From NCBI GenBank assembly GCA_012845835.1, contig JABAKD010000016.1, positions 22,986,573 through 23,050,572 of the forward strand: a stretch of DNA of 64,000 bases, in the 5' to 3' direction. The stretch comes from Undaria pinnatifida. Its lineage: Eukaryota; Sar; Phaeophyceae; Laminariales; Alariaceae. A program made the translations under genes and the position numbers. Under the pieces are notes generated by a model. It was not told the origin of the DNA. It ran no database searches and saw nothing but the letters and a program-made list of their open reading frames with translations. This document shows positions 2,768 through 60,071 of this stretch, one piece after another. Numbering within the stretch: position 1 is the stretch's first letter; the number at the start of each line of letters is the position of its first letter.

Positions 2768-3930
2768 GTACAGGCTGTCCGCGTTACGTGCCTAGCTGTT
2801 CCGGATTCGCATATAAAACGTTAAATTCGAGAAGGGGTGTTTATTGTTGTAAAGGTTCGTGCTGCCTTGTTTGGGTACAACCGTCGGACGGCAATGCGAT
2901 GAAATGGTCTAATGTTTATGGGTTGCGAACGAACGTTGTACGGGCAGCACTGCCAACATGCAGTCGACCCCTGTATAACACAAATAAATAAGCGCGTTTT
3001 ATGCAAGGGACGTCATCGAGCATCCCCGGAGCCAATAGGTGCGCCGTGAGCGCGGGCGTCGCTGGGACGCAACGGAAGGCCCGCAGGCTGCCGCACAATA
3101 TATTTAAAACAATGGCGGCGGGCCTCTCAACGCACACGTCGATTTCATGATTTTTTACACGAGCAGCACCCAGCAGCACCGTGACTCTCGAAGACCACCA
3201 CGATTACGCACGGAAGTAGGCTTTTAACAGGAGAACAATAGGCAGAAGGAAAAAGTGTCTCATTCGCTGCGACCGCTGGCGCTCGTTGCTCCTTGTCCAC
3301 CACGGAGCCGCAACACCACTAGCGAGAAACGAATTGACAAATACGTCTAACGGGCATTCTTACTGTGCCCCAATGTGACAAGCCCACAAAGGCTAGCCCA
3401 CGATGACCCCCTCTGCCCATGTCGCCGCGCTCAACGTCGAGCTTTATTCGCTGTATCGTCCATCCCCGCCACAGACGTACCACCCATGATGGGTTTGGAC
3501 ACAAATATTTTCTCCCAAATTCTTACTCAATAGGCGGCCTGCGTACCAACCACAAACCTACCCCCACTGAGTGCCCACCATCAGTGGCAACACTTTAGGA
3601 CCCCCCCCACGCGCTCGCGGCACCTCCTTGGATAACGTGCTGTCCTCCCCCACGGCCGTCGCGCTGTTTCGTGGATGTTTTCCTCCTGGACGACCCTGTC
3701 TGTCTCTTGGCCTGGGGAGGTGGTAGTTGGTGGAGGAAACAACAGTTTTGCGGCGCTAAAGAAAGGCCCTGGCGGCTGTTTTCGCTATGCCACATTTCTC
3801 CATTCAGTCTAGATTGCCGGACACCCTCTGGCGCACAGGAGCTTGCCGTGTTGAAGCCGCTGACGCGAGATTAAAAGAAGCCTGCCCCACCCCGACACAA
3901 GGTGCGATGCTCATTTGTTGAAACGGCAAC
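2768..3930. other. No gene recognised
   Basis: The short ORFs in this stretch overlap on both strands and show no domain, repeat or convincing splice signals. It may hold the 3' flank of the ankyrin pseudogene and of the MULE relic. Confidence 0.5.
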
Positions 3931-3934
3931 GCCC

Positions 3935-5045
3935 CTCCTCCCCCGCTGATGGTGATAGCCGGAAGCCCCACGCCAGGGCTTTGCATGCCCACGGCTGACA
4001 CACCAGCGCTCCCTCCCCCCCTTCCTCCGGTGATGGCGATGGCCGGAAGCCCCACGCCAGGGCTTTGCATGCCCACGGCTGGCACACCAGCGCCCCTCCC
4101 CCCCCCTCCCCCGCTGATGGTGCTGGCCGGAAGCCCCAGGCCTGGGCTTTGCACGCCAACGGCTGACACACCAGCGCCTGCTCCCTTCCCTCCCCCGCTG
4201 ATGGTTCAGGCCGGAAGCCCCACGCCAGGGCTTTGCATGCCCACGGCTGACACACCAGCGCTCCCTCTCCCCCTTTCCTCGGTGATGGTAATGGTCAGAA
4301 GCCCCACGCCAGAGCTTTGCATGCTCGCGGCTGACACACCAACGCCCCCTCCCCGCCCCTCCCCCACTCATGGTAGTGGCCGAAAGCCCCACGGCAGGGC
4401 TTTGAATGCTCACGGTTGACACACCAGCGCTTCCTCCCCTCCCTCCCCTGCTGATGGTGATCGCCGGAAGCCCCAGTCCAGGGCTTTGCACGCCTACGGC
4501 TGACACACCAGCGCCCGCTCCCTTCCCTCCCCCGCTGATGGTGCTGGCCGGAAGCCCCACGCCAGGGCTTTGCATGCCAACGGCTGACACACCAGCGCCC
4601 CCTCCCCCCCTTCCCCCGATGATGGTGCTGGCCGGAAGCCCCACCCCAGTGCTTTACATGCCCACGGCTGTGACACCAGCGCCCCCCTCCCTCCCCCTCC
4701 CCCGATGATGGTGCCGGCCGGAAGCCCCAGGCCAGGGCTTTGCATGCCCACGGCTGACACACCAGCGCTCCCTCCCCCCCTTCCTCCGGTGATGGTGCTG
4801 GCCCGAGGCCTCACGCCAGAGCTTTGCATGCTCGCGGCTGACACACCAACGCCCAACGCCTCCTCCCCCCCCCTCATTCGCTCATGGTAGTGGCTGGAAG
4901 CCCCACGATAGGGCTTTGCATGCTCACGGTTGACACACCAGCGCTCCCTCCCTCCCCTGCCCCGCTGAGGGCTCTAGCCCCGGCCGCCTGTAGCAACGTC
5001 TGAAGCCCCCCACCAGGGCTTCGAACGCCCGCCGCTGAAACATCA
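3935..5045 (-). repeat. 84-bp minisatellite, about 12-13 units, at the 3' end of the MULE coding region
   Basis: A landmark (ctttgcatgcccacgg and variants) recurs at about 3,981, 4,065, 4,149, 4,233, 4,317, 4,402, 4,486, 4,570, 4,654, 4,740, 4,824, 4,916 and 5,020. Most spacings are exactly 84 bp, or 28 codons, and later units drift to 92 and 104 bp. On the minus strand the units read as Gly/Ser/Pro-rich repeats (VGMQSPGVGLPA) and an open frame joins them to the MULE tail (4,874-5,263). On the plus strand they read as Pro-rich repeats (GSPTPGLCMPTADTP). Confidence 0.9.
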
Positions 5046-15258: not shown

Positions 15259-16184
15259 TCAGGTAGTGCTGTCAATTTTCTTGGCTAAGAGCGCGAAGTC
15301 GGTGCCGAGGGGGCTTGACACGCGGTAGTCTTCGACAATTCCACGGATCGCCTCATACCCCTGCATTATTTTATGCCCATCCTTGTCCAGAACCGGGCGG
15401 GCCGTCTCACCCAGAATGCCGCTGAGCGACTCGTTGTCTAGAGACAGACCGTCTAAACCCACGTCCATCTGCCAGAACTCCATGTCGGGGAGGACACGAC
15501 CATCCCAGTCAACGTCCCCATTGCCTTGAAAGTTTGTGCCGACGTGAAGGCGCACCGTGACAGAGGTAGTAACTATCTTGAAGACCGAGTAGATGGACTG
15601 CACATCGGCGAGGTCTTTCTGTGAGATGAATTGCGTGCACCAGTCGGGGGCGGCCATGTGGTCGAAACGCAGAATCCAGTCCTCGAACGTTTCCTCCACG
15701 GCCAATTCGCGCTTGCCGTGCAGCATCTCGTCGTACATGCGTGCCCATATCTTGTCGCCTCCGAACTGCCGACACTCTACAGGTAGGTTGGAAGCCGACA
15801 GAGCAATGCCGTCCGTCACATACTCGTCTTTGGAGAAACGGAGAAGGCTGTTCACCTCCTCGCCGTCGACAACAGCGCGAAGTCCGCCGTTGGAAAGGCA
15901 GGTGGACATGCTGGGGGGGCAGCCGGCGGTGTGAACATCGTACGGGTTCATCACCTCGATAACGAGCGAATGACCCTGTGACATGACGCTAAGGCCGGTA
16001 ATGAGCTGGCGGTCTGGAAACTCTACGGGTAGAGGAGCGTTGAGCCGGACGTTGACGCTGATGCTGTCGGTGTCATCGGAGACGATGCAGTACCAGCTGT
16101 TGTCGACACCGGACCAGTCAATCTGCTGGCCGCGGAAGCCTTGCATGTGTGGGTCACCACACATGCTTGTTCCTGGGTCGCACA
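15259..16184 (-). CDS. Terminal exon: von Willebrand type D domain
   Basis: The exon starts after atgcag| at 16,184 and runs to TGA at 15,259-15,261, giving about 308 residues. Near the start it reads MCGDPHMQGFRGQQIDW, the conserved 'C-GDPH...F-G' opening of VWD domains. VWD domains form disulfide-linked extracellular assemblies in mucins and von Willebrand factor. There are about nine Cys, two acidic clusters, and a C-terminal segment (GTDFALLAKKI) with no membrane anchor. The 1-phase entry matches the EGF exon. It is the longest open frame in the window and the most securely coding piece of the gene. Confidence 0.85.
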
Positions 16185-19100
16185 CTGCATAGTGTAAAAA
16201 AGCGGCGGGATATCATGGCGGATGATGCTGGTGATGTACGTAATACAATGGTTTGGCGCATCTACGAAGGGTTGAACTGCAGGCAAACTTTCACTGGCAC
16301 TCTTTGCGGACACAGTTGCGTCGTCATAGGGACAGCGTGTGACATGCGGTACGATCGGGGTACCGCTGTTCGGGCCAACATATGAATGAATTCTGAGCTA
16401 CTTGACTGTAAAGAAGTTCGGAATACCGTTTCAACACAATTTGCGTTGCAAAGTTGATATCGCCAACCTTGAGCATTTTCCTCCGTCTTCATTTCAGCAA
16501 TTTCTCTGTATCTTTTTTTTTGTGGGGTATAGAGGTCCCCAAGTTAAGGCCCTCACAGCATGCAGCCGCTACCCCTCTCGTATCATTGGTCCTCAAAAAT
16601 ATTTGAGCCTTGTCTAACGTCCCGTAGAAGCAACTTGGTGTTACTAGTGGCCACGATTCCGTTTTCGTTTTATAGGCGGGGAGCCAAATTTCTGTTCATT
16701 CATGAAACAAGGCCTTGATATGAACGGAGAGGAACGATTGTTGATGCTGTTGATTCTGGGCTACATGAGGGCGCGTTTCAAATATTTCAAACATGTTTCT
16801 TGTTGGCGAAAAACTGGGGACGTTGCGATTGGCTTATTTTGGGGACTTTCCGCAAGCGGCTTCTGCCTCGAACGATGCCCGTACGCCGTACAGCAGGCTC
16901 ATGTGTTAAAATATCAGAATTGTTCAGATCAACGAAAGACTACTCAAGTGCCTCGTCTCTTGTTGTTGTAACATTCCCAACATGTCCTACACATAAATAT
17001 CGGTCGCAAGATGTGAAGAGTCACAGCAGGCGCATGGCACGTTGTGTCTCGATTGACGCCGATCATCACACGGTTGGACGTTTAGTGGAGGTGCATTTTT
17101 CTTTCTATTGGTCGCCCTTCATTCTTGCCTTCCCTACCCTTCGTCATGTTGGTGGACGTGCTGCCCATGGTTTCGTCTACTTGAGTACCGTAGAGACAAG
17201 AACACCAGATGCTACACGCTGACGGCATTAGCGACTTGTGAAAGGAATTTAAGTTCCATGAGAGACTTACTATTGCAAGTGTAACCGTCGGCTCCAGGCA
17301 CACAAGTTTGCCCATCTCCACACGATACCGCTGTGGGTGGGTCACATCCTGCTTTCCGAGGCGTGTGCGACAGAGAACAGAGAGAACGACAGGGCAGACA
17401 TGTGTTGGGCACGATTAGGCCGTGTTATCGGGTACGTCGGCTACATAGATCAAACCGTGTGCGAAACTGCAGACATTTGTCTAAGTCGCGAAAATAACCT
17501 AATGATGGAGATTCTGATTACAATATAGGGTACATATAGGTTCTGAAAGAAGGAACCACTGCGCCCCTTGATTATTCTAGCTCAACGCCCTTATCGGTTT
17601 CCGTTGATAACGACATGACGTCGATAACAATGATAGGCATTCTTCGCGGCCGACGTTTGCGGAAAGAGGTCCGCATTTCGACTTGAACTCTGCCGACTCT
17701 TACCGCACACGCCAGAGGGGTCAACCTGTGGAGCGTCAGCTGACATCGAGGCGTCGGAGAAGGTTCTGCGTTTGCCAAACCGGCTCAAAAAGGGGGTCGA
17801 CGATGCAAGCACAGTTGTTGTTTAGGGCAGATCGTCGGAATAAAACACTAGTGTATACACGAGGCGACGCTGTTCATGAACGATTAACCATTCCCGTCTC
17901 AATCGGCATTGACTCCGCATTGTACACGAACAAAAAAATACCATACAAAGCCAATAATCAAAGCGAGTGATGAACAACTCCGTCCTTCACACATCTTCCT
18001 GATTTATATTTAGCACTGTACGATTGCTTGCAATCTAGGTCAAACCAAAGGCCGCAGGCGAATATCACCCGTCCATACATGCATATGAACAATAAACAAT
18101 GATAATCCATCCCCCACCCACGTCACTTACACGGACGGGATGCATTGCAGGTCCGTGTTTACACTTAGATACCTGAATGGAAAGAAGGAAGGTTTCCGCA
18201 ACAGCAAAGAAAGGTAGACATGGGTCAACAAAATGGGTGGATGTAAACACGTTAACGCGCTGTGATTGACCCACGAAGACCACAGGTAGGCCCGAGCGTG
18301 CTGACCCAAGGCAGCAACAGTGGCTGTGTTTATGATCGACATGCAATGTGCAGCGGTTAACTACGTCGTGTTACCAAACGGTTGGCGTCTGGATTGTTAG
18401 CCATATGACCGTTGAACAGCGAACATGTGAGAGAGCGTAACGATACGTAGCCACGTTCTTCGTAGTTTCGCTTGCGTACACTGAAGTCAGGAAGATCGGT
18501 TTGTGACACCACCAACGGGCACTCACAGCTCCTCCATGCTTCCGTTGGACCCCAAGCTCTCGAATACTCCCTCAGGAAGCGTCGTCAGATCGTTGGACAG
18601 CAGGTACCTGTCGATTCCGATTGAAGAAGGGGAACATAAGTTAAAGTGGCAGCGAAGAAATATACCGTCTATACGCGTGGTTTTTGCTACAGGGGGTATT
18701 CTCGATGTTTTTATTGACTCGTGTTGAATTCGCAAACTGTTTATAACAGATCGATATTCCTTCGCCCTTGGTATAATCCACTTCCCATACAGTTTGGTTT
18801 GAAATATCGCCGATCTATGCCATAGGCGAAGCCATCGAAGGCGTATCTAACTCTACAAGTGACCACCGCGTTCAGTTGGCCTCCTTCAGCGGGCGGCCGC
18901 CAGTCCACACGGTTCACCGTATTGTAGGCATTTTTGTCATCGATGGTATTTTAAAGAGAGTACTTTGGTACTGTATTTATGGGTAAAAGGGTGTGGTTTG
19001 TCGAACCTCAATCGTTTTGGACTGCCTACACCTGAATCGTTTACTTGCAATCGATGAACGTAATGTACTCCCAGTGCTTCTTGCAGGCACGACGCAACCG

Positions 19101-22100
19101 ACCATGCACCCCAGGATATAAAGGCCCATTGAGTATGCATACATATAACCGTCTCCTGTGAGTAGTTGTAGGGCAAATGACGCGAGCTACGACAGAAGAG
19201 CACCGCTTGCTTTTTGAGGTCCATAAAAAATGTGAGCATAATACCTTTTCCAATAACACAATTGGGGATAATTACAAGTGCTGGCCATTGAACAATCCCA
19301 TAGCCTAGGTACACCACGACCATCAGGCAAACCCTTGACCTGTTTCCGACGATTTTGCCATAAGGAGCATCACCATTCAAAAACGTTTCAAACATAAAGT
19401 GCTCTATCGGTCATAGCACGCGTCAAATCGGTATATGCAAGGGCCGTTAGCTCTCAAACGACAAAGCATCTAACAAAGGTTGCATCGGACCTTTTTGGAG
19501 ATGAATGTTCTTTTCGTTGAGATCGGTATACAAGGTCGGGGTGGTATCTACGGCACTCACACGGTTTCCGCAGACCATAAGCCAGTAAAGGCGTCCACGG
19601 GCAGGCTGGAAATATCGTTATAATGCAGGTACCTGACAAAGTCTCGCGGCGCCATCGGAAAACAGAATATTTCATACATCAAGGGTACAGATATCTGTGC
19701 GGGATTTTCTAGGAACTAAGATGACAATGCAAAAAGTTGCATTGGTGTTCGGGAAGTGTTTCATGCCTAGTCTCGTGCCTTGTATGCATACCCATTCCCT
19801 AGCAAACTGAACAAGAAGAAGGCATACCCTGCCGCACGACGGAGTGCAGTCGTACCATTCCGCCAAAGCGGACACGGCTTTGGTTCCAAACGCCCGTCTC
19901 GTTGATTATTGCACTTGGTACCTTCGGCCGAACCTGTCTCAGGGCGTTCGATAAAGTGGCAGCAGCAACGATGCTATTCCGCAGCTTTACACAGGCCGGA
20001 ATGGGCCATTGGTGGGCATCGCAGAAACGAAAGTAAAGTATTTCGTGTGACATAACACGGTCTCCCGCCGTCAAATTACACGTCGCCACGAATAATCTTT
20101 TTTGTATGGTAGATTTTGCTTCCTCCTCTATGTCAACAGATGTTAGTTGGTACTCCAGCGCCACCTCAGCCTTTCACGACCTGTTGGTACAGAATTTCGT
20201 GAACCCTGCTCAAACATATTGGAGTAATCGGCGCAGCGCCGGGTTTCTCCGTACCTACTCTCTCGTTAGAGTCATCGGCCGTTCAGCCTGAACTTGTTCA
20301 GAGGCCAACGTGCGGTTCAACCACGGTCTGTCTGTATAGAGTAAAAGTCATTTCGCGCCTTGAAAACGGTAGAGTGGAAGTGAAGAGAGCGCGTACCAAC
20401 TTTCCAGGGTAGCATGTGGTAATACTCACAGATGGGTCAGAGCTCCCAGACCGGCGAAGACGTTCGATGGGAGGGTTGCCAGGTTGTTCGAGTTAAGGTG
20501 CCTTATGTACATGGCGGAAACCGTGGCGTCAAGAGGGAAAAAATGTCACGAGGTCAGCAATAGTAAACAATTCTGATGGTGTCGTCGGTGACAGTTCATT
20601 ACCGTGGGTTAGTGGTACGCCGAACATCCATATCCCGTGTTTGTTGTGCGAGCGCATTAGTCCCACATTTGATTAGGTGATAATCGAATGCCTAACCCTA
20701 AAATATAGGGTTGGAGCTGGAGCGGTCACTACCATAGGACAGAACGGCCACACCGAGCGTAATGTAATGACGTTGACCTCGCAAGGCGTTTTCGTTGTTA
20801 CACGGTATATAGACTAACCCAGATGGGCTTATGGTGAAATCCATGCTCCTGAAGTGCCACCACAACGTTTTGAAACCTGCTGGTATATAATTTGGTTAAC
20901 CCTGCTCTAATCTAGTTTTGGAGTAGTCGACGAGTCGCGAGATTTCTCCGTGATTTTGAACGGCTCAAATCATTGACTGTTTAGCCCGAACTACTCCAGA
21001 GACCAACGTGTGGTTCAACCACGGTCTGCCTGTGTAATGTGCCGGTGATTTCGCGCCTTGAAAAAGGTGGAGAACAAGTGAAAAGAGCGTGTACCAACTG
21101 TTCAAGGGTAGCTTCTCGTTATACTCACAGATGTGTCAGAGCTCCAAGGTCGGCGAAGATGTTCGTTGGAAGGGTTGCCAGGTAGTTCGAATTAAGGTGC
21201 CTTATGTACGTGGCGGAAGTCGTGGCAGCGGGAGGGTGAATATGTGGCCGGGTCAACAATCGTAAACAATTATGATGGTGTCGTCGGTGACAGCTCCTCA
21301 ACGTGGATTGTTGATGGTACGCCGAACATCCATGTCCCGTGTTCGTTGTGCGAGCAGTAGGTTTTCTACGCCCCTTGTACCGTACAGGTTCCTATACAAG
21401 GTAACGTGAAATGACACTGATCTGAGTCATAGGGAGAACGATCGAAGGCGTACGTTGGCATGCAGCACAATTTTTTCTCGCGCTAATATACCAGCTCATA
21501 TTCGTATCAAACTCTACAAGTGACCACCGCGTTGTATTGGCCTACTCTGGCAGGCGGCCGCTAAACCACACGGTTCACCGTAGTGTAGGCATTTTTTTCA
21601 TCGTTGGTTTTTCACGGAAGGGAGTGTTTTCGTACTGCAAAAAACGATGGAGGTGTGTGGGATGTCGAACCTCAACCGTTTTGGACTGCCTACACCTGCA
21701 TCGTGTGCTAGCAACTGATGAACATCATGTACTCCCGGTGCCGCCCCCAGGCACAACGCACCCACCCATGCACGAAAGGAAGAACACGCCCATGGGCTCA
21801 ACCTATGCCTACATCTAACTCTCCCCTGTGAGTTGTTGTAGTGCAAATTAATTGTGCAACGAGAGAAGGGCATTGATTGCTTCCTGAGGTCCCGAATAAA
21901 AGCCCGCATAAGACCTCTTCTTAGACCAAAATGGGGGAAAATTACAACAGCTACCGCGTGAAAAATCCTATGGCCTAGGTACATCACGACCATCATCAGG
22001 CAAAACCGCGACCTGTTCCCGACGATTTAGCGATAAGGAGCACGACCATTCTGGAACCATTTCAGACATAAGGTGTTACCTTAGTAGCACGCGTCAAATT

Positions 22101-25100
22101 CGTATATGTATCAAACGCCGATGTAAGAGATGTTTGCCCTTGAACGGCAGAGCATCTAACGAAGGCTGCATCGAAAAATTTGAAGATGATCGTTTTTTTG
22201 GTTAAGAACGGTATACAGCGTCGAGGTGGTATCTACGGCACTCACAGTTGTTCCACAGACCACAAGCCAGTGAAGGCGTCTACGGGCAGGCTGAAAAAAT
22301 TATTATGATTCAGGTACCTGACATAGTCTCACGGCGGCATCGGAAAACAGAAGATTTCGTACATCAAGGGTACAGATATCTATGCGGGATTCTCTAGGAA
22401 TTAAGATGACAATACAAAATGTTGCATTCGTGTTCTGGAAGTGTTTCATGCTTAGTCTTCTGCCTTGTATGCATACCCATTCCCTAGCAAAATGAACAAG
22501 AAGAAGGCATACCCTGCCGCACGACGGAGTGCAGTCGTACCATTCCGCCAAAGCGGACACGGCTTTGGTTCCAATTGGCCGTCTCCTTGATGCTAGCACT
22601 TGGTACCTTCGGCCGAACCTGTTTCGGGGCGTTAGACAGTGTGGCAGCAGCAACGATGCTATCCCGCAGCTTTACACAGGCCGGAATGGGCCATTGGTGG
22701 GCATCGCAGACACGAAAGTAAAGTATTTCGGGTGACATAACACGGTTACCCGCCGTCAAATTACACACCTCCCACGCATGGACTTTTTTGTATGGTATAT
22801 TTTGCTTTCTCCTCTATGTCAACAAGTGTTAGTTGGTGCTCCAGTGCCACCTCAGCCTTCCACGACCTGCTGGTGCAAAATTTCGTGAACCCTGCTCTAA
22901 CATATTGGAGTAATCGGCACAGCGCCGGGTTTCACCGTTTCCTTTCTCGCGTTAGAGTCATCGACCGTTCAGCCTGAACTTGTCCAGAGGCCAACGTGCG
23001 GTTCAACCACGGTCTGTCTGTGTAATGTGAAAGTCATTTCGCGCCTTGAAAACGGTAGAGTGGAAGTGCAGAGAGCGTGTACCAACTTCCCAGGGTAGCT
23101 TGTGGTGATACTCACAGACGGGTCAGAGCTCCCAGATTGGCGAAGACGTTCGATGGAAGGGATGCCAGTTTGTTCGAGTTAAGGTACCTTATGTACATGG
23201 CGGAAGTTATGGCGGCGGGAGGGTAAAAATGTAACGGGGTCAGCAATCGTAAACAATTATGATGGTGCCGTCGGTGACAGTTCATTAACGTGGGTTAGTG
23301 GTACGCCCAACATCCATGTCCCGTGTTTGTTGTGCAAGCAGTAGGTTCCACATTTGGGTAGGCGAATGATCGAGTGCTAAACATGTAAAACATAGGGCTG
23401 AAGCAGGAGCGGTCACTACCATAGGACAGATCGGCCACACCGAGCGTGATGTAGTGACATTGACTTTGCAAGGCGTTTTCGCTCTTACACGGTTGATGGA
23501 CTAACACAGATGGGCTTATATAAAAGCCCATGCTCCACACAACCCGACTTTGTGGGTTGTATTTTATTCGGTACGGACTATATCGTGTCTGAGCAGACTG
23601 CTAGTTGACAGCTGTGTTAGACAGCAACGCCCATGGGTATGGAACCTTCCGTATATGGGTGAGCTTTTGGGATGTGTCATCAAGGCGGGTGGGGGGGTAT
23701 TTTTTTTCGTGTAGCAGCTAGCTGTCAGAGAGAATTTCCACGTGGGGGAGAAGTCGGGGGCATCAGTGTTGTATCAGAAGCAAAGCCCGGAGGGTTTAGC
23801 CTTGCAGGTGCATCATAAGCTGATGCCGTCGTAGTATTGAAAGGCCTCCACAACGTTTCAAAACCAGCTGTTACAAAACTTGGTAAACCCTGCTTCAATC
23901 TCTTGAAAAAATCCACAAGGTGCGGGGTTTCTCCGTCTTTTCTCATCGTTTACAATCATCGACCGTCTAGTCTGGGCTGCACAAATAAGGCCAACGTGCG
24001 GTTCAACCACGGTTTGTCTGGGTAATGTGCCGATCATTTCGCTTCTTGGAAACAGTATAGTAGAAGTGGAGAGAGCGTGTACCAGCTTTTCAAAGGCAGC
24101 TTGTTGATATACTCACAGTTCGGTCAAAGCTCCCAGATCAGCGAAGAGGTCCGCTGGAAGGGTTGCCAGGTCGTTTGAAGAAAGGGACCTTATGTACGTG
24201 GCGGAAGCCGTGGCGGTGGGAGGGTAAGAATGTTGCCCGGTCAACATTCGTAAACAATTATGATGGAATCGTCGGTAACAGTTCATTAACGTGGGTTGGT
24301 GGTACGCCGAACATCCATGTTCCGTGATTGTTGTGCGAGCAGAAGGTTCCACATTTGGGTAGGTGATGATCGAATGCTAAACTTTGAAATTAGGGCTGAA
24401 GCAGGAGCGGTCACTCCATTGGAGTGATCGGCCACACCGAGCGTGATGTAGTGACATTGACTTTGCTACACGTTTTCGCTATTGAACGGTTGATGGACTG
24501 ACACAGAAGGGATTAAAATAAAATCCATGCTCCACACAGCCCTATCGTGTGCGTTGTTTTTGATTCGGTGCGGACTGTCGCGTGTCTGAGCGGACTGCCA
24601 GTTGACAGTTGTGTTAGACGACAACGCACATGGGCACGAAAAGTTCCGTATATGGGTGAGCTTTTAGGATGAGTCATCGAGGCGGATGCGGGGGTATTTT
24701 CTTCGTGTAGCAGCTACTTTTCAAAGACAATTTCTAAGTGGGGGGGAGTCGGAGAATTCAGATTGAAATCGTACGCAAAAACCCGGAAGATTTAGCTTTG
24801 GAGGTGCACTTTAAGCTGCCGTCGTCCGTCGATTCGTGACGCTGACGGGCCTATACCGTTGGTTATATCCGGGTTCTAGGTGTCCCAGTTGGCGCGGGAG
24901 TAATGGTGACCACGAGGCATTTTCTCTCTCCTTTCTTCACGTGTTTCGATAGTACCCATTGCTGTCTCTGAGGTGGCCACAACACACAAAAACTAAGTAG
25001 CGCTGTCATCCACACAAAATGAAGTATGCACAAGGTCTCGAAGTCCTTCTTATTTGCAGTTGTTGAAAAGATGCAGTACACACTATGCGCGACAGGTAAA

Positions 25101-27882
25101 AAATCTCACGGAGCTTTGCGCTTGGTGCAAGCAATGTCTCCCTGGTTGGTGAACACCTGATGTGCTCCGTCCCGGCACGCTAGGGATGCGAGGAGTTTTA
25201 GTGATATCACAACGGCCGTACACAAACTGCGTACACCCGCCCCTGCCAGAGCCGTGGGGGTGCTGTACATGTTTCTTTTGAGTTGGCGAGGGTGCGTGTA
25301 ACATAGCTCTTCATTTGAAACATGTGTTGAGGAATGTTTAAACAGCGCCGAAAACCTTTTTTGCAGCCGTATCTCGCACCGAGCGTCTTCTAGCCGCCGG
25401 AACACCGTTTAGAAGTTAATCTGACATTTGGTTGTAATGGACTCAGCATCTAGTACAGAAAAACGCCCCTAAAATACAAGTGATCACGGAATCCCCGCTG
25501 TATCTGGGTATGCGCGATAAGTACAACCTCAGAGGTCCTTCGTAAAGGAAAAACGTTATTGACTATTGGAACAATAACAACAGATACAACAAAAACAGCG
25601 ACAATATTGACCGAGTAGCAGAGATGCAATGATACATACATGACATTGGGGGCAATGCAACCATTTATCCGAGAACCGATCTCGTGCCGCATGAGTTTCG
25701 AACGGAGATATACCGGCAACTTTGAAGGAAGGCGAGAAGCAAGGGACGAGAAGCGACACTAACCAAATCCTCAGGGCGCCCATAGGACCGAAAATATCGG
25801 CAGATATCGTTGCATACGCCGTCGGTATTCAATCGTCCACGGGTTGGCATGCGTAACATGAGGTGCAGTGGGAAGGGTGGCGTCAGAGAGAGGGAAGCGG
25901 AATCGCCAGCGACATACAAACGCGAGAAGTCGTTCGCCGACGCTGTCGTCTTTAAACGGCGTATTTGCGATTACAGACACACTTGCGCGACCGACACCCT
26001 TGGGCGAATCCAGGCCGCACGATTATTGTATTCATATCGCTAACACTCTGGAGGCTTTTGCGCATCAAAACACATGCCTAGTTTACCATCGCATGCCACC
26101 ACAGACCGCTGTTGTTGCTGTTTGATTTCCCTCAATCACGCTCCACATAAAAAAAAAAGGAAGAGATCCCACAGCTACGCTACAGGCACCTACACTCAGA
26201 CTTGAGATCCAACTATCGCTCCCGCGCCAAAAAGGATATTGATATTCTGAACGCCAAGTTTCGACCTACTTCTGCACCGCTGCTGACCATGTTCAGTACC
26301 AACGACGGCAGCGGAGATTGGCCAGACGCAAGACGTGATAAACTTCTGTCTCATCACCACCCTCAACAGTATGCACATATGTCACGCAGGGGGGCACTAT
26401 AACAATCGTCAAACGGAGAACAGCTAGGAGACTTTTGACGAACATTTCGAGTATGGAAACACAATAATCCAAGGCGCATGTTGCGATAGGGTTTACGTTG
26501 ACATTGGTTGAAGACCTGCAGCTTGAATTGTTCATTTGGATGAAAGTTTGCATTTTTCCCCACTGTTTGGTGTGGGTTTCAAAATGGACCTCACCAGTTT
26601 GGTGTGGAGATCTCAAGGCGGGCATCTTCAGAAAATAAACATCGGCCCCAATCGTACCACCCGTCGCCTCATATTCTTAGCAATATTTCCAGTTACACGT
26701 TTCCGGACAAGCTTACTGGCATCGCATAGCTAACAGTGTTGATTAGCGCTGCCTTCGACGCGAAAGCATAAGTCACAGTGATTACAACACACTTTTCTTG
26801 CCCGTCTTCGAACAACAGGGAAACGTACATGCTGGTGACGCCGCTTCGTCCAATATCGTCCAAACACGTGCTGATGTCGGGGAGGTCATCGTCTGTAAGC
26901 CCACAGTAAACTAAGTACCTGAATAATGTGGCAACGAAGACGAAGATATTTATTGTCGACGAGGGTGGAATAGACCTCTACGTGGCGTATTCGCGAAGCT
27001 TTGAATACCGTAGTACTCGTACTGTAGCTTTCGCACGAGAGGGCATTCAAATGGTACTAGAGATTCACACCAGAAAAAAGCCCCCCTCGAGTAATTTTCG
27101 GTACGTGTCGACGGTGCACCAGTGGGAGTCCCAGTAAGTTAGCCTTGTGACCACAGCTCCGGCAAGATGTACATACCTGAAGCTACAGCACAGTGTGTGT
27201 TGTCAAAATTCACCAACAGAAAAAGTTGAACCTACAGTGTACAGCAAAATCTGTGAAGGTGCCAACCGTTCGGCCAAGGGTCTCTTCTCAAAGACCATAC
27301 GGGTAGGTTACTTAGGGAAATGGTATAAAGGGGCTAGTCGAATTCCATGCAATTTGCACATAACTTCCCGGGGAAGACGTATGGAACGCTCTCACTCACA
27401 CTTGTGTCGTTGGCGTGCAGTCTGTAAGACATGAGTTGAGACCTGGATCAGGGACAGCAAGACAGGTGCCCAAGTGGATATGTGGGAATAATTGAGTCAG
27501 TTAAAGGACGGTGTCTTGTGCGCACCTGCATGAAACATTTCATCGTCGCTTCTACGTTCGGAGGATCGGTTGGTCAGTGCACACCCCGGAACACCGCGAG
27601 AACGCTTCGTCCGCCAGCATGGCGATCTCCATTTTGTGGTATCGGTGTGTTTGTTGGAATGGGTATGCTTGATGTGCTCGGCACGAAAGAGTCGCAGAAC
27701 GCAACTTTTGCTACAATCTGCCCGGTATTGAGAACCTTCTCACGTAGCGTTCATAGTTGTTATACATTTTTCTATCATGATACAGTAAACAAGAGACGAC
27801 TTGGACATTCCAGCTCACCGTTCACGGAGATACTGAAGGTTACCGCCAACAAGGCCGTAAGCGTCTTAGTCAACCGAACCAT
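15259..27882 (-). CDS. Secreted LRR-EGF-VWD protein gene (multi-exon model)
   Basis: The joined model reads, 5' to 3': a signal-peptide exon (27,819-27,882, or alternatively 25,110-25,270), a possible LRR N-cap (26,829-26,918), LRR exons at 24,117, 23,116, 22,246, 21,129, 20,430, 19,561 and 18,527, an LRR end piece (18,131-18,172), an EGF-like exon (17,271-17,348) and a VWD exon (15,259-16,184). All junctions are GT-AG. The LRR exons are phase 2-2 and the EGF exon is 1-1. No transmembrane segment is seen in the coding pieces, so secretion is inferred. LRRs bind ligands, and EGF and VWD modules are extracellular. Uncertain points are which first exon is used, the phase gap between 18,131 and 17,348, and whether exons above 25 kb belong to the same gene. 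Confidence 0.65.
17271..17348 (-). CDS. EGF-like exon
   Basis: This 78-nt exon, phase 1-1, lies between gcag|GA and A|gtaagt. It encodes CDPPTAVSCGDGQTC followed by VPGADGYTC. The spacing of the four Cys and the 'DGYTC' end match the start of an EGF domain. A 1-1 phase is usual for EGF modules. Confidence 0.7.
18131..18172 (-). CDS. LRR C-terminal partial repeat exon
   Basis: The exon follows attcag|G and encodes YLSVNTDLQCIPS, a half repeat ending in 'LQC.P' as in LRR C-terminal caps. The consensus donor (GT|gtaagt) leaves phase 2. An alternative donor two bases earlier leaves phase 0 and would allow a 22-nt microexon (17,704-17,725, VDPSGVC) to lead in frame into the EGF exon. I cannot decide between them. 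Confidence 0.6.
18527..18607 (-). CDS. LRR exon 7 (type C, 81 nt)
   Basis: The exon is bounded by gacag|G and CT|gtgagt, phase 2-2. It encodes LLSNDLTTLP and VFESLGSNGSMEEL, three residues longer than the others. The extra length lies in the convex loop, which fits the last full repeat before the LRR end. Confidence 0.75.
19561..19632 (-). CDS. LRR exon 6 (type B)
   Basis: This 72-nt exon lies between cag|G and GT|gtgagt, phase 2-2. It encodes LHYNDISSLP and AFTGLWSAETV. The final codon is completed as Val rather than the usual Leu. Confidence 0.8.
20430..20501 (-). CDS. LRR exon 5 (type A)
   Basis: This 72-nt exon lies between ataag|G and CT|gtgagt, phase 2-2. It encodes LNSNNLATLP and VFAGLGALTHL. 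Confidence 0.8.
21129..21200 (-). CDS. LRR exon 4 (type A)
   Basis: This 72-nt exon lies between ataag|G and CT|gtgagt, phase 2-2. It encodes LNSNYLATLP and IFADLGALTHL. It lies about 700 bp from the type A exon at 20,430, with related intron sequence between the two. Confidence 0.8.
22246..22317 (-). CDS. LRR exon 3 (type B)
   Basis: This 72-nt exon lies between cag|G and CT|gtgagt, phase 2-2. It encodes LNHNNFFSLP and AFTGLWSVEQL. It is the block-duplication partner of the exon at 19,561. The two differ at 14 of 72 bases, while about 245 bp of the adjoining intron differ at about 16 positions. Confidence 0.8.
23116..23187 (-). CDS. LRR exon 2 (type A)
   Basis: This 72-nt exon lies between ataag|G and CT|gtgagt, phase 2-2. 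It encodes LNSNKLASLP and VFANLGALTRL. It is the block-duplication partner of the exon at 20,430. The two differ at 7 of 72 bases, of which 6 change amino acids. Confidence 0.8.
24117..24188 (-). CDS. LRR exon 1 (type A)
   Basis: This 72-nt exon lies between ataag|G and CT|gtgagt, phase 2-2. It encodes one 24-residue LRR with the parts LSSNDLATLP and LFADLGALTEL. The shared intron sequence upstream marks it as a member of the type A family. Confidence 0.8.
25110..25270 (-). CDS. Alternative first exon with signal-peptide-like start (proximal)
   Basis: ATG at 25,270 opens a frame with the hydrophobic run LCTAVVISLKLLASLAC about 15 residues in. The exon ends at a donor (GCTCC|gtgaga) in phase 2, exactly the phase needed to enter the LRR exon at 24,188. 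It may be an alternative first exon, or the first exon of a gene separate from the 26.8-27.9 kb pieces. Two other frames across the same stretch are also open, so the call is tentative. Confidence 0.35.
26829..26918 (-). CDS. Probable LRR N-terminal cap exon
   Basis: The exon is bounded by attcag|G and AT|gtacgt and is 90 nt long, phase 2 in and 2 out. It encodes YLVYCGLTDDDLPDISTCL, then DDIGRSGVTSM. The 'C.LTD.DLP...CLD..GR..VT.L' arrangement resembles the segment that leads into the first LRR in algal LRR proteins (from memory, not a search). Its phase lets it splice directly onto any of the LRR exons downstream. Confidence 0.5.
27819..27882 (-). CDS. Candidate first exon with signal peptide (distal)
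   Basis: ATG at 27,882-27,880 opens MVRLTKTLTALLAVTFSISV, followed by Asn and a split Gly codon. This is a textbook signal peptide: a basic start, a hydrophobic core and a small-residue end. The exon ends in a canonical donor (AACG|gtgagc) in phase 1. The next LRR-type exon (26,829-26,918) is entered in phase 2, so one more exon is probably missed in between. That this exon starts the LRR gene is inferred from strand and proximity. Confidence 0.5.
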
Positions 27883-35280: not shown

Positions 35281-35384
35281 CCCCCGTTCTCACAACTAAC
35301 CAACTCGCGGCTAAAAACTACAGTGGTTGGGCTGTCTGCACCGTACGAACCGCACATTAATCGTAAACACAGACGACCGCGCCT

Positions 35385-36900
35385 CCTGTCTGGAGTGCTG
35401 TCCGATTGACGACCTCAAGGCGTGGAGTGAAACAAGAGCAATCGAACTATAAACCACAATATAATAATCAACGATCGCCCCGCCTTCCCGAGGTTTTTGA
35501 CAGGTGCAGCGAAGACACAACGCCCGTGCCTGAAAAATGACAAATGCGGGGGGTCGTTCCTGATGAAGGATATAAAACTCGTCTACAAACTTACAAGAAT
35601 CAGTGACGCAAGTAACATGTGTGCCTCGTGAAAAAACCCTGAGAAAAAGACGATCGTTACTCTCATGATGATGGTGTACGTGCGGGTCGTGGATCTCCGC
35701 GTGCCATCCTCCTACTGTGGTTTTCCATGGTCGCCTCATCCCCTTAGCTCACTCGTCGTGCTCCTTCGCACTTTCTCTCGTTGACACTCAATTCTAATCG
35801 CTTCCCCTTCTCCCCCGTCCCCAAAAATCAAAATGCTTTACGCTGCTTGCGGTCCTGTTCCGAAAAACAAAAATTTTGTTTAGGGAGAGTTCAATCCGTC
35901 TCTTCCTCGCCCGTCGACGGCTAGACGCCCTCCTCCTTTGTCGTCGAGTCCAGCCTCCTGCAGGCGCAGTTTCTCCACGCAAACCAATACTGCGCTGTCG
36001 CGCGGCTCGTGGTGGGGCCTGCCTCCGCGCACGAGCATCCCGATTAAGCATCGCTGCTCCGCCGCTTCTGCCGAATAAGATGCGCAAATAGTAGGTGACC
36101 ATGCCCAACACACCACATACGACCCAACTCTACTGCCACGAATAAGGCTCGCGGCCACAAGCAGCAGCAAGACAGTATCACCCCTCGACGGTGAGCCCGG
36201 CCTAACACCCGCTGGAAAGACCGCCCCCCCTACTCGCTACAAGCCTGCTAGGGCATGCTTCGCAGCATGCCTTGCCAAGGCGGCGAGGGGAAAGGAGGTA
36301 GTACCTTGTGCCAAGGATCACTGGTCACCACTGCCTATACTGTCGCTGGTATGATACGTGTCTGCTGTACACGTCACCCATCACCCACAATAAAGAATTA
36401 CAAACACACGTATGACCGCATAACGCGCTTGTTTTGTGCGAAACAGAGCTTCGTCTCACACAAACGCAACAGCAGCAGCACCACCACCATCAAAACCGCA
36501 ACAGACACCCCACACCAGCAACACAGCAGCAGCACAGCAGCAGCACAGCAGCAGCACGGCAGCAGAGGCGGTGGTGACCTAACCATGCCGGCGACAACGT
36601 ACGTGCTAGATGTCAAAAATAAAGGACAAAGGTAAATCAGGAGCTATCAATAAAAATTACACTACTTTTCAAAATCAGAAGGCAAAGACCAATAGACGCC
36701 CCCTATTATTTCTGATGCAGTAATTCTTGAGCCTCAAAACTACAAAAATAATCGCCCGAAAAAATTGCTCAAAATTTTCCATGATAGTAGGTATTTTTGT
36801 GTTAGTTCCATCTATTTAAAAAAAAATCGTAGTGTAGGACCCCGCATTCTATTCTATTCTAGCCGTCTGTCGTATACCTGCATTAAACAGGTAACAATAT
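35385..36900 (-). repeat. Family Z repeat, copy 2 (inverted), first part
   Basis: This is the reverse complement of about 415-1,932. It is interrupted at about 36,900 by an X block and resumes at 39,735. The hairpin at 36,252-36,271 is conserved. Confidence 0.85.
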
Positions 36901-36929
36901 ACGTCCTTGAAAACTAGTTTTAGAGTATG

Positions 36930-38770
36930 ACAAAAAATGAAAATACGCTCCAGCTGTGAGATCGAAGATATCGCGAAACTCATCTTTGCAAGCTGTGTGT
37001 GATACTCCGATCGCGCGCGTATTACGAGTTGTGTGTCTTCATAAATCGGCGACTCCCCTTACACTACACTGCTGGAGCTATCAGCGTCAACAGGGTGATT
37101 TAAGTCAGTCTGTGCGCGGGAACTATAAAAGCCGTTTCTGAGGGGGACAAAATCTGACAGCTGTGGAGTGAAATGTTACCTAATATCAAGTGAATCCTTG
37201 AAGTCGAATAACCGGTGAGGGGGGGGGGTGGAGTTTTGAAGGACGTGGGGGCCTGGTTTTGATCAAAAGCGAGCAGGGTTGGGGGTTGGGGGTCGGGGGG
37301 GGATGAGGGGGGGAAGGGGGCGGACGGGCGGACATTGTGTGCGTGTAAGCTATAAATCTATTCAAGGGGATAAATCTGACGGATTAGGGGAAAAAATATA
37401 AATATATGAAAAAAAAAAAAAAATGCCCCAGTTTATCATGGGGTGGGGGTGGGGGCAGGGGTCGGGCGTGTGGGGCAGCTCAATCTGTGCGTGCAAACTT
37501 TCATATATTTTGAGGGGATAAATGTGACAGTTTTGGAAAAAACGCATCAGTTCATCATGTATTTCCTAGGGTAAGTCGTACAATCAGTGAGTAGAGAGAG
37601 GGCGGAGTGTTCAAGGGGGTGGGGTTGGGATGGGTTGAGGGGGTTTGGGGAAGCCGGGGGTTGGGGGAGGGGGCGGGGGGGGGTGAAAGGGTTTTAGGTG
37701 AGGGGTTTGTTATACGTGTGGTACTAGGCCTAGGCGATTGTGCGGGTGGCGGGGAAGAAGGGGGCGTTCGGGGCGGGGGGGGGTGGGGAAGCAGCGGCAT
37801 GGATGGCTTTCGAAAGATAATGAGGTGATATCCAGTGCGTGAAGTGTTTTTTAATATGTCGGATTTCGATATTAGGTTTGGCGTTCGAGCATGGGAGAGC
37901 AAAAAGGGGGGGGGACGGGGACGGGGGGGGGGGTTATAGAGGTTTAAGTCACAAATAATATTTAAGTACACTTCGGCCGTGAGATCAATGGAATGTATGG
38001 GCTTGTTGTACGCGTGTTGTTAGGTCTGGGCGATCGTGCGGGTGGTTGGAAAAGAGGGGGCGTTGGAGAGGGGTTTCTTACTCTGGCCGATTTCGATTGG
38101 GAGTGGGGCGTTTGGACAAACTAGGCGGAAGGAGGAGGGGGTGAGGGGGGGGGGAGGGGGGGGGACGGGGGGAAGGGTTTTTTTTTTTTTTCAACAAGAG
38201 GGGTCAAGGGAGGGGTACAGGAGAGGGGGGGCCAGGGGGCGGGTCATTTCAATATGTGCGCATAACTAAAACTCCTCAAAGGGGACAAACCTGGCGATTG
38301 AAGCAATAAGACATCCCTTTATATCATCTGCCTGATCAAGTTTACTATTCTAGAAGGTTTGATGTTAGATGCAGTATGCAACGTAGTGTTTAGGTGTACC
38401 TGGTAGTAAATACCGTGTTAAATCTTCTTAATTTGTTGCTGTATGATACATGGATCGAAAGATAGAATATTTCAATATACAAAATGAAGTAAAGTCCAGC
38501 TGTGAGATCGAATATTTCGTCAAAACGTATCTTTGCAAGCTGTGTTATGCGTATTACATATTCTATAGATTATTTGTAGTTACCATTATTTTCTGGCTCT
38601 GCTGATGATAAGAAAGAGGTACGTATTGACAGATACGACAGGCGAGGTGATGTGGTCATGCACTACAGTGTTTGTCACCATCATCATACAGCAGTTACCA
38701 TTTTTTTCTGACATCGCTAATTTTACGGAAAAGATACGTATTGCCAAAAACATGCGAGGTGATGTAAAAA
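36930..38770 (+). repeat. Family X repeat block, G-rich orientation, unit 1
   Basis: The unit begins with an end sequence (gctccagctgtgagatcgaa) followed by a stretch conserved in all X copies (gcaagctgtgtgtgatactcc). Long G-rich tracts follow at about 37,210-37,320, 37,610-37,790 and 38,130-38,180. A second, partial unit starts about 1.84 kb later. No protein is seen. Confidence 0.75.
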
Positions 38771-39705
38771 TTGAAAATTCGCTCTAGGTGTGAGATCGAA
38801 AATTTGGTCGAATCTTATCGTTGCAAGCTGTGTGTGATGCTCCGATCGCGCGTTTTACGATATGTGTGTCCTCATTAAAGATATAGGTCGTCGACTCCAC
38901 TTACAAATACAGTGTAGCTATCACGGTCAACAGGGTGATTTTAGGCAGTCTGTGCGCGGAAACTAAAAAAAAACCGTTTCTGAGGAGGACAAAATCTGAC
39001 AGCTGTGAAGGGAAATGTATCCTTTTATCAAGTGAATCCTTCAAGTCAAATAACCGGTGAGGGGGTGGGGGAGTTTTGCAGGACGTGAGGGCCTGGTTTT
39101 GATCAAAAGCGAGCAGGGTTAGAGAGGGGGGGGGGGGGGGGGGGGGGAAGAGGGGGGGCGGACGGGCGGGCAATTGGTCCGTGTAATCTAAAAAATATTT
39201 TCAAGGGGATAAATCTGACTGTTTTTGGAAAAAAAAAAAAGAAGTATAACTGAATTATAATTCCCACCAGTTTATCATGGGTGGAGGGGGGGTTGGGGCA
39301 GCGGTCTGACGTGTGGGGCAGCTCAATCTGGGCGTGAAAAGTATTTTTAGGGGATAAATGTGACGGTTTTGGAAAGAACGCCTCAGTTTATTATGTATAT
39401 CCGGGGGTAAGTCGTTCAATCATTGAGTAGAGAGAGGGCGGAGTGTTCAAGGGGGTGGGGTTGGGATGGGTTGGGGGGGGGTTGGGAAGGTGAGGGGTGG
39501 GGGAGGGGGCGGAGGGGCAGGGGGGGGGGGGGGGGGGAGGTGGGCGGTGGGGGGGGGGAAGGAAGGGATTTAGGGGAGCGGTTTGTTATACGTGTGGTGC
39601 TAGGTCTAGGCGATGGTTCGGGTAGTGGGGAAGAAGGCGGCGTTCGGGGCGGGGGGGGGAGTGGGGGCAGCGGCATGGATGGCTCTCGGAAGATAATGAG
39701 GTGAT
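38770..39705 (+). repeat. Family X repeat block, unit 2 (partial)
   Basis: This repeats 36,935-37,830 with about 1,835-1,840 bp offset. It includes a 22-base G run at 39,126-39,147 and dense G tracts at 39,470-39,560. It ends against the resumed Z copy 2. Confidence 0.75.
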
Positions 39706-39734
39706 ATCCAATGTATATATTCTGGTAAAAATGT

Positions 39735-40115
39735 CAATTGATATTTTTGCAGAGTTGTTGGTGCTCTCACACTAACTCGCGTAATCAAGTCTGTGGTCAC
39801 ATGACAGGCTCCAGTTACTCTGGAGCTGAGGAATACCCCGAAGAGAAAAACAAGCAACCCAAGTTACACGGATATATCTCAGCTGACGTAATTCATGCCT
39901 CCACCAGAATTTTTGTTTAGGTGAAATCGAAAGTCAGTCTTCGATGTGCAAGGTCCAAACCGGTGCCTTCGTCTCATTACTCGCGCCTGGAAAAACCGAC
40001 TATACCGCTTGCCACCCCAGAAAGCCTACCAGTAAAAATTTACACCTGGAATATATCACTACGCATACGCTCGACAGATGCTGGTCAGTTAGAAAAAAAA
40101 AAAAAACCAATAAGA
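39735..40115 (-). repeat. Family Z repeat, copy 2 (inverted), outer part
   Basis: This is the reverse complement of about 5-400. It contains the phrases cctggaatatatcactacgc and ggtccaaaccggtgc. It ends in an A-rich stretch followed by a purine tract. Confidence 0.85.
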
Positions 40116-40270
40116 GGAAGGGAATGAAAGAAAAAAAAAAAGAAAAGAAAGCGAGACAAGAAAACAAAAGAGGAAAGGAAAGAAAAGAAAAGAAAAGAAA
40201 AGCAAATAAAGGCAAGACATGAGAATAAAAGAAAAGCAAGAAAAGGCAAGACAACAAGACGCAATAAAGG
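40085..40270 (+). repeat. Purine-only low-complexity tract
   Basis: A- and G-rich sequence with a clear (AAAAG)n section near 40,140-40,200. It has no coding meaning. Confidence 0.9.
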
Positions 40271-54124: not shown

Positions 54125-55955
54125 ATGGTGTCCATCCGGGATACGCGCTTGCCCTCGCTGGTGATCACCCTGTGTATCTCCCTCTAGTTTTGGGTTTCTC
54201 GTCGTGGTTCTGTTTGCTGCTTTTTCTGCTGCTGCTTCTTTTGTGCTCCTCTGCTGCTGTATCTTTTGTGCTCCGAGCGCATCATCGCTCATTTTGTTCC
54301 TCTCTGTCAGAGCGCGTGAGCGCGACTTTTTGCGCGCGCTCCTGGGAGCCCAGCCTGTCTAGCAGAAGTCAATTGGGCACGGTGCATTGCAGCAGTTAGG
54401 TGGACACGGTGCCGCCTTTGCACGCGTCCCGCGTCGATACCCAATTGCGTCGCTTTCAACATGCTGTTATCTCGTCTTTTCTGGGCGTTTTTGTTTCTTG
54501 TTTCACTTGTACATTGTCTTGGAACTTTTTTGCGAGTGGATCTCATATTACAACGCAGTAGTATTGCTGCTGTGAGACTGTACTATTTCGACCCGTATCC
54601 GCTGATCTTTTGGGGTCCACGGCACACCCAGGGGAGCACGCTACCCTGGAGTGTGTCTGCATCGTTGCTCTCACCAAGGCGCTCTCCAGTTCCGATTGCC
54701 CTCTCTGTCGTTGTCGAATGGCACAGGTGGGAGTTAAACAGCAGTACACCCGGTTAGGCCCCCGCCCTAGATTTTCCGGCAGCCAGCTGAAAAATGATAT
54801 AAGAAAAGCAAAGAGCATAAGTCCGAAGTGATGCGGGATAGTGGTTTCAGTGCGCGCCACGGGTGTACTGGCTGCGGAAACTCCCAGGCCTTTTATCCGC
54901 ACGTGTGTCTCTGCCGTCGCTGCCGTTGCTGCTGTTGCCGCGCGTTGCTGCTGTTGCCGCGCGTTGTTGCTTGCGTTGCTTGTTCTCCACTGTTTGTGGT
55001 GCCGTCGCTGCCGTTGCTGCTGTTGCCGCGCGGTGCTCCTGTTGCCGCGCGTTGCTCCTGTTGCCGCGCGTTGCTGCTGTTGCCGCGCGTTGCTGCTGTT
55101 GCCGCGCGTTGTTGCTTGCGTTGCTTGTTCTCCACTGTTTGTGGTGCCGTCGCTGCCGTTGCTGCTGTTGCCGCGCGTTGCTGCTGTTGCCGCGCGTTGC
55201 TGCTGTTGCCGCGCGTTGTTGCTTGCGTTGCTTGTTCTCCACTGTTTGTGGTGCCCCGTGAGCACTGCCTACAGCAGGAGAGGCCAATAGTCGTACAATG
55301 TTCGAAATTTTACACCGACAACAACAGCAATGCCTTGCGCTGAGAGAGTAGACAGCAGTGATGTACGTGTCTCGTGTTGATAAAAGGGGAACCTCGCGAC
55401 ATCGTAACTACTGAACCAATGCCTGACGTACTTGAGTTGTGTTCCCCAGCCACAACGGCACAATGGGAGGGTCTGTGCCTGGTTGAGCCGTGTTGTTGTC
55501 CCCCATGTTGGGGGAGACGACAACCAGTCTCCTCTAGGCCTGTGTCCTCCCGAGCTGTAACGCTATTATACATACTGCTACTGCTGTATTTTACATGCCC
55601 CACTTCCTGCGACTGTTATTTAGCCTGCAATCGGAAGGTCTGCGCCTGGTGGAGCCGTGTTGTTGTCTCCTATGTCGAGGGGGACAACAACCAGTCTCCT
55701 CTGGGTCTGTGCCTTCCCTCGTCACAACGTTACCTGATATATTACCACTGCTGTATTACTAACATGCTACTCGTCTTCCCAATGTTCCCTGTTATATTAC
55801 CACTGCTATATTGCTGACATGCTACTCGTCTTTCCACTTCAGGAGCTGTCACTCAATTGATTATTTCTTTTTATTTTTTTTTTTTCTCCGGCGGATGAGG
55901 AAAAATGAAGCTTTAGCTCACTACACTTCCACGTATTTCCATACGCGTATAATTA
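54125..55955 (+). repeat. M module, copy 1 (unclassified repeat)
   Basis: This is a direct duplicate of 57,004-58,732 (period about 2.88 kb, similarity above 95 percent by eye). It contains a Cys-rich open stretch (about 54,610-54,831, with SSSDCPLCRCRMAQVGV) in both copies, a 19-bp minisatellite, and closes with the family Y head. Confidence 0.85.
54920..55260 (+). repeat. 19-bp minisatellite with higher-order units in M copy 1
   Basis: Units of GTTGCTGCTGTTGCCGCGC alternate with a longer phrase (cttgttctccactgtttgtgg). Three long phrases occur here and two in M copy 2, which explains the roughly 100-bp length difference between the copies. Confidence 0.9.
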
Positions 55956-58732: not shown

Positions 58733-59094
58733 TGGGTCACAGGTACACTTTCTACCGTTACGTAGACAGATCTTCTCGTGAAGATTTGTATGAACGGTAG
58801 CCGTTCCAGAGGTATTGAATATCGTGTCTTGTTGTACTAAAAGTGGTCGTGGAGTCTCCGTAGATTCTGATGACAGAGAGGCGGGTAATTACGTCTCCCG
58901 CTGACAAGTAATCTCTGTCGACTCTCTGTTTTGCCTGCGAAGCACCTTTCGTTGCCTCAAGGCACTTCTATCGTTACCGTCGCTTGGTTCGCCGTCGAAC
59001 CTTGCTCCAACCTGGCGTGTCCTTCACGCTACGAAGAACAAGAAGAGAAGTGGTTGCAAGTTGCGAGTCGAACCTGGGATACCCCAATCCCTCA
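58733..59094 (+). repeat. 5' LTR-like repeat (362 bp)
   Basis: Begins TGGGTCACAGG and ends CCAATCCCTCA. On the minus strand it contains a tRNA B-box-like phrase (AGGTTCGACTC) near 59,065. Confidence 0.8.
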
Positions 59095-60070: not shown

Positions 60071-60071
60071 T

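Follow-up and report, generated by a model that had tools for sequence, protein, structure and literature searches.

The window analysed here, 64,000 nucleotides (nt) of the brown alga Undaria pinnatifida (assembly GCA_012845835.1, contig JABAKD010000016.1, positions 22,986,573 to 23,050,572), carries on its minus strand, from 27882 to 15259, a gene that combines leucine-rich repeats (LRRs) with a tail of predicted VWD fold. We consider this gene to be probably a member of a large U. pinnatifida family of secreted, soluble recognition proteins whose LRR arrays are built from cassettes. The evidence comes from the anatomy of the gene, from paralogs in which the cassettes differ in number and order, and from the divergence of the concave face of the repeats.

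Structure of the gene and of the predicted protein

The gene was assembled from 14 exons whose splicing was predicted from the sequence; with GT-AG borders they give a single open frame of 605 amino acids (aa), in the order signal peptide, N1, N-cap, six LRR exons of 72 nt, one LRR exon of 81 nt, two C-cap exons, an EGF-like exon and a last exon of 926 nt:

27819..27882, minus strand, exon 1: start codon and signal peptide MVRLTKTLTALLAVTFSISVN; 64 nt, phase 0-1, alignable to two paralogs
27400..27442, minus strand, exon 2 (N1): start of the Cys-containing N-cap; 43 nt, phase 1-2, splice sites intact in two paralogs
26829..26918, minus strand, exon 3: LRR N-cap CGLTDDDLPDISTCLDDIGR; 90 nt, phase 2-2
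25764..25836, minus strand, relic of an N-type LRR exon, outside the predicted mRNA; 73 nt, with one extra base and splice sites lost, aligned to six intact N-type exons of paralogs
24117..24188, minus strand, LRR exon E1, type A; 72 nt, phase 2-2
23116..23187, minus strand, LRR exon E2, type A; 72 nt, phase 2-2
22246..22317, minus strand, LRR exon E3, type B; 72 nt, phase 2-2
21129..21200, minus strand, LRR exon E4, type A; 72 nt, phase 2-2
20430..20501, minus strand, LRR exon E5, type A; 72 nt, phase 2-2
19561..19632, minus strand, LRR exon E6, type B; 72 nt, phase 2-2
18527..18607, minus strand, LRR exon E7, type C, the last LRR; 81 nt, phase 2-2
18131..18172, minus strand, C-cap exon 1 YLSVNTDLQCIPSV; 42 nt, phase 2-2
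17704..17765, minus strand, C-cap exon 2 TFSDASMSADAPQVDPSGVC; 62 nt, phase 2-1, homologous stretch in the Undaria gene models P0003 and P0004
17271..17348, minus strand, EGF-like exon; 78 nt, phase 1-1
15259..16184, minus strand, last exon: VWD-fold domain with a helical insert, starting CDPGTSMCGDPHM; 926 nt, 308 residues plus stop

The original prediction had placed the gene at 15259..24188 and missed five exons, three at the 5' end and the two C-cap exons that separate the last LRR from the EGF-like exon. The exons that it did describe were found again: seven one-LRR exons with AG/GT borders, six of them exactly 72 nt and all in phase 2-2, followed by the EGF-like exon and by the VWD exon of about 308 residues. 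The correct borders of N1 and of C-cap exon 2 were obtainable only by comparison with paralogs. A 584-aa gene model, in which two small exons were shown to be wrong by homologous paralog exons, was replaced by the 605-aa model; protein homology searches were run with the 584-aa version and the Pfam search was repeated with the 605-aa version. As all the LRR exons are in phase 2-2, the gain, loss or skipping of any one of them keeps the frame. An LRR-exon scan of the window gene and of nine regions with paralogs found 42 matches in sense, 7 in the window gene and 35 in the paralogs (G40 with just one), against 0 in antisense, which served as chance control.

The predicted protein has a hydrophobic N-terminus and no later 19-residue segment with a mean hydropathy above 1.2. 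Cys residues are located at 26, 30, 41 and 54, N-terminal of the LRRs, and at 247 and 271, C-terminal of them, and Pfam matched LRR_8 with an E value of 1e-43. With a putative signal peptide, Cys caps and 24-residue LRRs, and with neither a transmembrane nor a cytoplasmic domain, it shows the features of an extracellular LRR protein. The ROC-COR tandem that follows the LRRs in ROCO GTPases was not found in the 605 aa, where Pfam at E values up to 1 returned LRR families only. From the anatomy and conservation of the signal-peptide exon, together with the lack of another strongly hydrophobic segment, we infer that the protein is probably secreted, which supports the extracellular location originally proposed.

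Of the two domain labels first given to the C-terminal half, VWD was upheld as a predicted fold, and EGF proved weak. The Cys spacing encoded by the 78-nt exon is C-x7-C-x5-C-x8-C-x2-C-x6-C with GYTC, the sixth Cys adjoining the GDPH of the VWD domain. One residue separates the fourth and fifth Cys in canonical EGF, and no Pfam EGF match was obtained with the 605-aa protein. Of the 17 closest loci, 15 show the exon by its pattern (1.5 kb of flank examined). With respect to the tail, the Pfam VWD profile at E up to 1 matched neither the window exon nor 43 relatives, a miss that does not exclude the fold; RGM_C was matched by one of the 43, at E 0.16, and the profile search against PDB sequences gave nothing better than E 0.53. 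In the full-length structure model of P0003 (pLDDT 70.2, pTM 0.51) the LRR strands are visible and the domain arrangement is not trustworthy. The GDPH motif is kept in the tail (CGDPHM, 15259-16184, minus strand), its D, P and H being nearly invariant across the 43 relatives; GDPH-like motifs are the self-cleavage site of some mucins and RGM proteins. A VWD-tail protein of brown-algal type, P0013, is catalogued under a metagenome-assembled genome of Hyphomicrobiales and is probably algal contamination of a bacterial bin.

A gene family with variable cassette arrays

One assembly of 511,146,479 bases was searched. The last exon gave 131 matches, some of which are fragments of one copy; 40 of them have at least 79% identity across at least 301 of 307 residues, and all but one of these 40 lack stops. 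They lie on the scaffolds C22 (n=14, 21.8-23.6 Mb), C28 (n=18, 9.0-9.4 and 12.8-14.6 Mb), C30 (n=7, 1.6-2.3 and 8.2-8.4 Mb) and C26 (n=1). When the best 40 of 42 candidates for the signal exon were scored, 36 each had a VWD exon of their own on the same strand, 10-27 kb downstream; of these VWD exons, 35 belong to the set of 40 and one is a broken copy. The N-cap query gave 23 matches, five on C28 and one per gene in an 18-gene group on C22, C26 and C30, which comprises 17 genes with a VWD exon at least 90% identical and one with a broken copy. The type C exon had 21 matches, never more than one per gene.

The remaining four of the 40 scored signal exons (C28:13642906, 13663531, 13679527 and 13710370) lack a VWD exon on the same strand within the 30 kb downstream of them; an N-cap match adjoins two of them, and the four are possibly headless-tail or truncated members. 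The LRR exons of the C28 paralog at 13.157 Mb are letter-for-letter those of P0004, a JGI Undaria gene model, so P0003 and P0004 are same-species paralogs and not independent evidence. The window gene (L001, C22:23001834) and L002 (C22:23151565) stand on opposite strands, 150 kb apart, with VWD exons 96% identical. The viral contig scan revealed no relative. The GC content of the window is 49.97%, the published U. pinnatifida genome having 50.14% (PMC7058681).

A decaying pseudogene array would account for the broken VWD copies (stops in 27 of the 131 match rows by hand count, some rows being pieces of one copy) and for the single LRR exon still recognisable in G40, one of the nine fetched paralogs. 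It is nevertheless very improbable, given that all but one of the 40 closest VWD exons run without interruption, that the mean dN/dS of the VWD exon is 0.18 (29 loci, a thirtieth being left out because of a stop) and that the window gene is open across its 14 exons.

The arrays were compared by means of DNA queries. Four A-type queries, each scored for the best 40 of 96, 90, 73 and 82 candidates, gave at least 59 distinct places, and for the B-type query 32 of 32 candidates were scored. All 59 A places and 30 of the 32 B copies were located between the N-cap and the VWD exon of the 18-gene group, and the remaining two B copies upstream of VWD exons on C28 and C30. Among the matches listed, the 91 scored copies of A and B were all inside the LRR-VWD family; no exchange with an intracellular ROCO pool is therefore visible at this DNA similarity. 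Leaving out five C-type and five N-cap matches on C28 and C30, which are part of other genes, the 18 genes gave 14 different cassette strings. The string nAABAABC was observed in the window gene, in its inverted neighbour L002 and in one further gene; nAABABC, nBAABC, nAAAABAABC and nAABAAAABC are examples of the others. A cassette, exon plus intron, measures about 1 kb: 23 of 30 A-to-A steps fall at 696-1033 nt and 22 of 28 A-to-B steps at 839-913 nt. Steps near 1980 nt suggest unscored units, so the number of cassettes counted is a minimum. In the paralogs fetched from C28 and C30, the front types N, D and E (72, 75 and 72 nt) come before A, B or C; the window gene keeps an N-type exon in the decayed form listed above.

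The borders of the units are mosaic. Upstream of the exon, E2 and E1 are similar over the whole 480 nt (78-92%), whereas E5 keeps pace only within about 360 nt; downstream, E2 resembles E5 (85-98%) and the similarity of E1 to E2 drops to 30-63% beyond 240 nt. In addition, a two-unit block A+B recurs as E5-E6 and E2-E3, with an offset of 2.66-2.69 kb. Mosaic borders and a recurring block fit unequal recombination or conversion in which the exchanges take place close to the exons, and support the proposal that cassettes are added, removed and mixed in this way. It could be argued that this is an ordinary one-LRR-per-exon structure without repertoire meaning, taking into account that animals also have phase-2 one-LRR exons, as in the vertebrate gonadotropin receptors (Teng 2024, PMC11378527, in the sections covered). 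This explanation appears quite improbable: cassette number and order vary among paralogs, cassettes are mosaic and one exon has decayed in place.

Other features were noted in the window. A tandem array of 84-nt units (3932-4968, 12.2 copies, 81% matches) lies mostly inside an open minus-strand frame of 260 aa (3871-4653) with no Pfam match. In the region 54179-60398, stretches mostly 94-100% identical have recently been duplicated in direct orientation; the copies are offset by about 2.8-2.9 kb and 0.98 kb, and one more pair of copies is separated by about 4.1 kb. Long inverted similarity with the look of dispersed repeats links 3-1933 with 35368-40125 (up to 486 nt at 93%), related blocks being found near 32-45 kb. 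Eight other open reading frames of the window, from 194 of at least 90 aa, had no Pfam match above the curated cut-off.

Divergence of the concave face

The concave positions were defined as 1, 3, 4, 6 and the last of the LRR exon, chosen from LRR geometry and from the selected sites of Teng 2024 (PMC11378527). We compared 41 exons in seven sets (128 pairs) and omitted G40, whose one exon stands alone; the means were weighted by exon number. Mean divergence was 0.50 for concave nonsynonymous sites, 0.33 for introns, 0.31 for exon synonymous sites and 0.16 for the other nonsynonymous sites. Concave nonsynonymous divergence exceeded that of introns in 118 of the 128 pairs, and the remaining nonsynonymous divergence was below that of introns in 122. 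In the five 72-nt sets, only 5 of 33649 five-position subsets scored as high as the concave set. These values, together with the low dN/dS of the VWD exon, support a regime in which tail and LRR frame would be held constant and change of the concave face would be favoured by selection. The original proposal of a shufflable repertoire also draws support from this rapid change, as it does from the mosaic unit borders and from paralogs differing in the number and order of cassettes.

Several observations weigh against a recognition family of this kind. The concave pN/pS is only 1.13 (0.57 elsewhere), because pS is also high there (0.45). No concave excess was found in A37, a set of three exons, or in the pair E4-E5, and the exon pairs compared are not independent. 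Part of the differences between strings may be due to missed units, the counts being lower bounds, and the C exon is absent from 2 of the 18 strings, again possibly a missed unit. The nearest solved LRR structures also include SHOC-2, which is an intracellular LRR protein.

The explanations weighed in this work overlap with the preferred one and with one another, so their probabilities need not add up to one. If the products were cell-wall matrix or adhesion proteins, the VWD tail would build a network, the LRRs would bind wall polysaccharides or proteins, and array change would be mostly neutral. The secretion signal, the predicted VWD fold and the recombination of tandem units agree with this, as do the other heads borne by VWD-tail relatives, e.g., WSC and VWA; neutral turnover, however, does not explain concave amino acids that outpace the introns in an LRR whose other positions lag behind them, and we regard this explanation as doubtful. 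Recognition between gametes, spores or self and non-self, with a diversification driven by reproduction or fusion and not by microbes, would suit a secreted, clustered family with many paralogs and fast binding faces equally as well as immunity. Some 40 close genes on four large scaffolds are generally more usual for non-self recognition, and this alternative seems rather unlikely.

Comparison with known systems and proposed role

The exon-shuffled candidate receptors of the ROCO and NB-ARC-TPR types in brown algae are intracellular, and Zambounis and collaborators reportedly described in 2012 the brown-algal LRR-ROCO GTPases with shuffling LRR exons. According to the sections covered of Teng 2024 (PMC11378527), ROCO LRR exons are 72 bp long and in phase 2, four sites of the concave face are under selection, and alternative splicing occurs in Ectocarpus. 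The Undaria family resembles them in having one LRR per 72-nt phase-2 exon, variable arrays and diversifying concave-face sites, and with these features it belongs among the brown-algal shuffling LRR-exon candidates. It differs in its signal peptide, Cys caps and VWD tail and in lacking ROC-COR. The exon register also seems different, since the conserved Asn is residue 5 of 23 in the Undaria family and about residue 20 in ROCO, the latter deduced from the same text if the selected sites 14, 16, 18 and 19 flank the LxLxxN strand. A search of the genome for the COR-A family found none, COR being possibly split by introns, so that the result is uninformative on the number of ROCO genes. The claim that the gene follows the same exon logic as the intracellular families stands for the 72-nt phase-2 exons; the register seems to differ, and no pool shared with ROCO is visible at this DNA similarity.

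The same sections of Teng 2024 (PMC11378527) describe in another kelp, Saccharina japonica, 15 non-ROCO sequences with shuffling 72-bp LRR exons, most with LRR motifs only and viewed as a possible reservoir; signal peptide, cap and VWD tail are unmentioned there, and some of these sequences may belong to the Undaria-type family. The exon logic is consequently not new. In the literature searched, most subscription papers being outside its coverage, no secreted LRR-VWD family of this build, size or tail was found. On the whole, the observation behind the original prediction was confirmed and its interpretation partly supported, more strongly for repertoire and secretion than for a new exon logic or a common pool with ROCO.

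The proteins P0084, P0189 and P0190 of Ectocarpus (unnamed products) share with the Undaria family an N-terminal hydrophobic stretch, a similar N-cap, LRRs and an EGF-like stretch, and the C-cap LQCVPS is also present in P0084 and P0189. They differ in their Cys-rich tail, which ends in a hydrophobic stretch resembling a membrane or GPI anchor; no VWD tail was seen in them. The Ectocarpus N-cap query (P0084, residues 20-110) retrieved 4 proteins only. A similar head with a different tail may reflect head/tail exchange between lineages, as judged from three closely related proteins. The Cys-rich tail of P0189 had weak matches in the Undaria genome (C19:4048715-4049032, E 3.8e-5; C24:6611628-6612020, E 4.6e-4), where a version with this tail may also be present.

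Outside the algae, the VWD domains of mucins, VWF, FCGBP and RGM are among the closest known systems to the tail. Lamprey variable lymphocyte receptors (VLRs) are likewise extracellular LRR solenoids with variable modules, and VLR-A is among the nearest solved structures. VLRs are assembled somatically from flanking cassettes; unlike these, the Undaria cassettes are exons of complete germline genes.

In the mechanism that we propose, each protein would consist of a signal peptide, a Cys-capped LRR solenoid, a short linker only weakly EGF-like and a tail of predicted VWD fold. Its one-LRR exons would be housed in exon-intron cassettes of a few types (A, B, C and others), and unequal recombination or conversion among them would yield paralogs with different arrays, selection keeping tail and LRR frame constant and changing the concave face. 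This face would bind variable extracellular ligands, most likely microbial or other non-self surface molecules, while the tail might multimerise, anchor to the matrix or relay a signal. The cassettes might also be alternatively spliced. A bolder proposal, which we advance tentatively, is a combinatorial extracellular immune repertoire in kelps: dozens of clustered germline genes, with frame-neutral cassettes recombining near the exons and multiplied by alternative splicing, would supply many secreted LRR proteins with a common VWD tail for effector function or multimerisation, by a logic comparable to that of Dscam or VLRs and independently evolved.

If the family is as proposed, a large set of secreted proteins that follow the same exon logic and have rapidly changing concave faces would represent an extracellular recognition layer for kelps, and frame-neutral one-LRR exons would serve two kinds of protein within one lineage. 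The genes named here are concrete and testable in a farmed seaweed.
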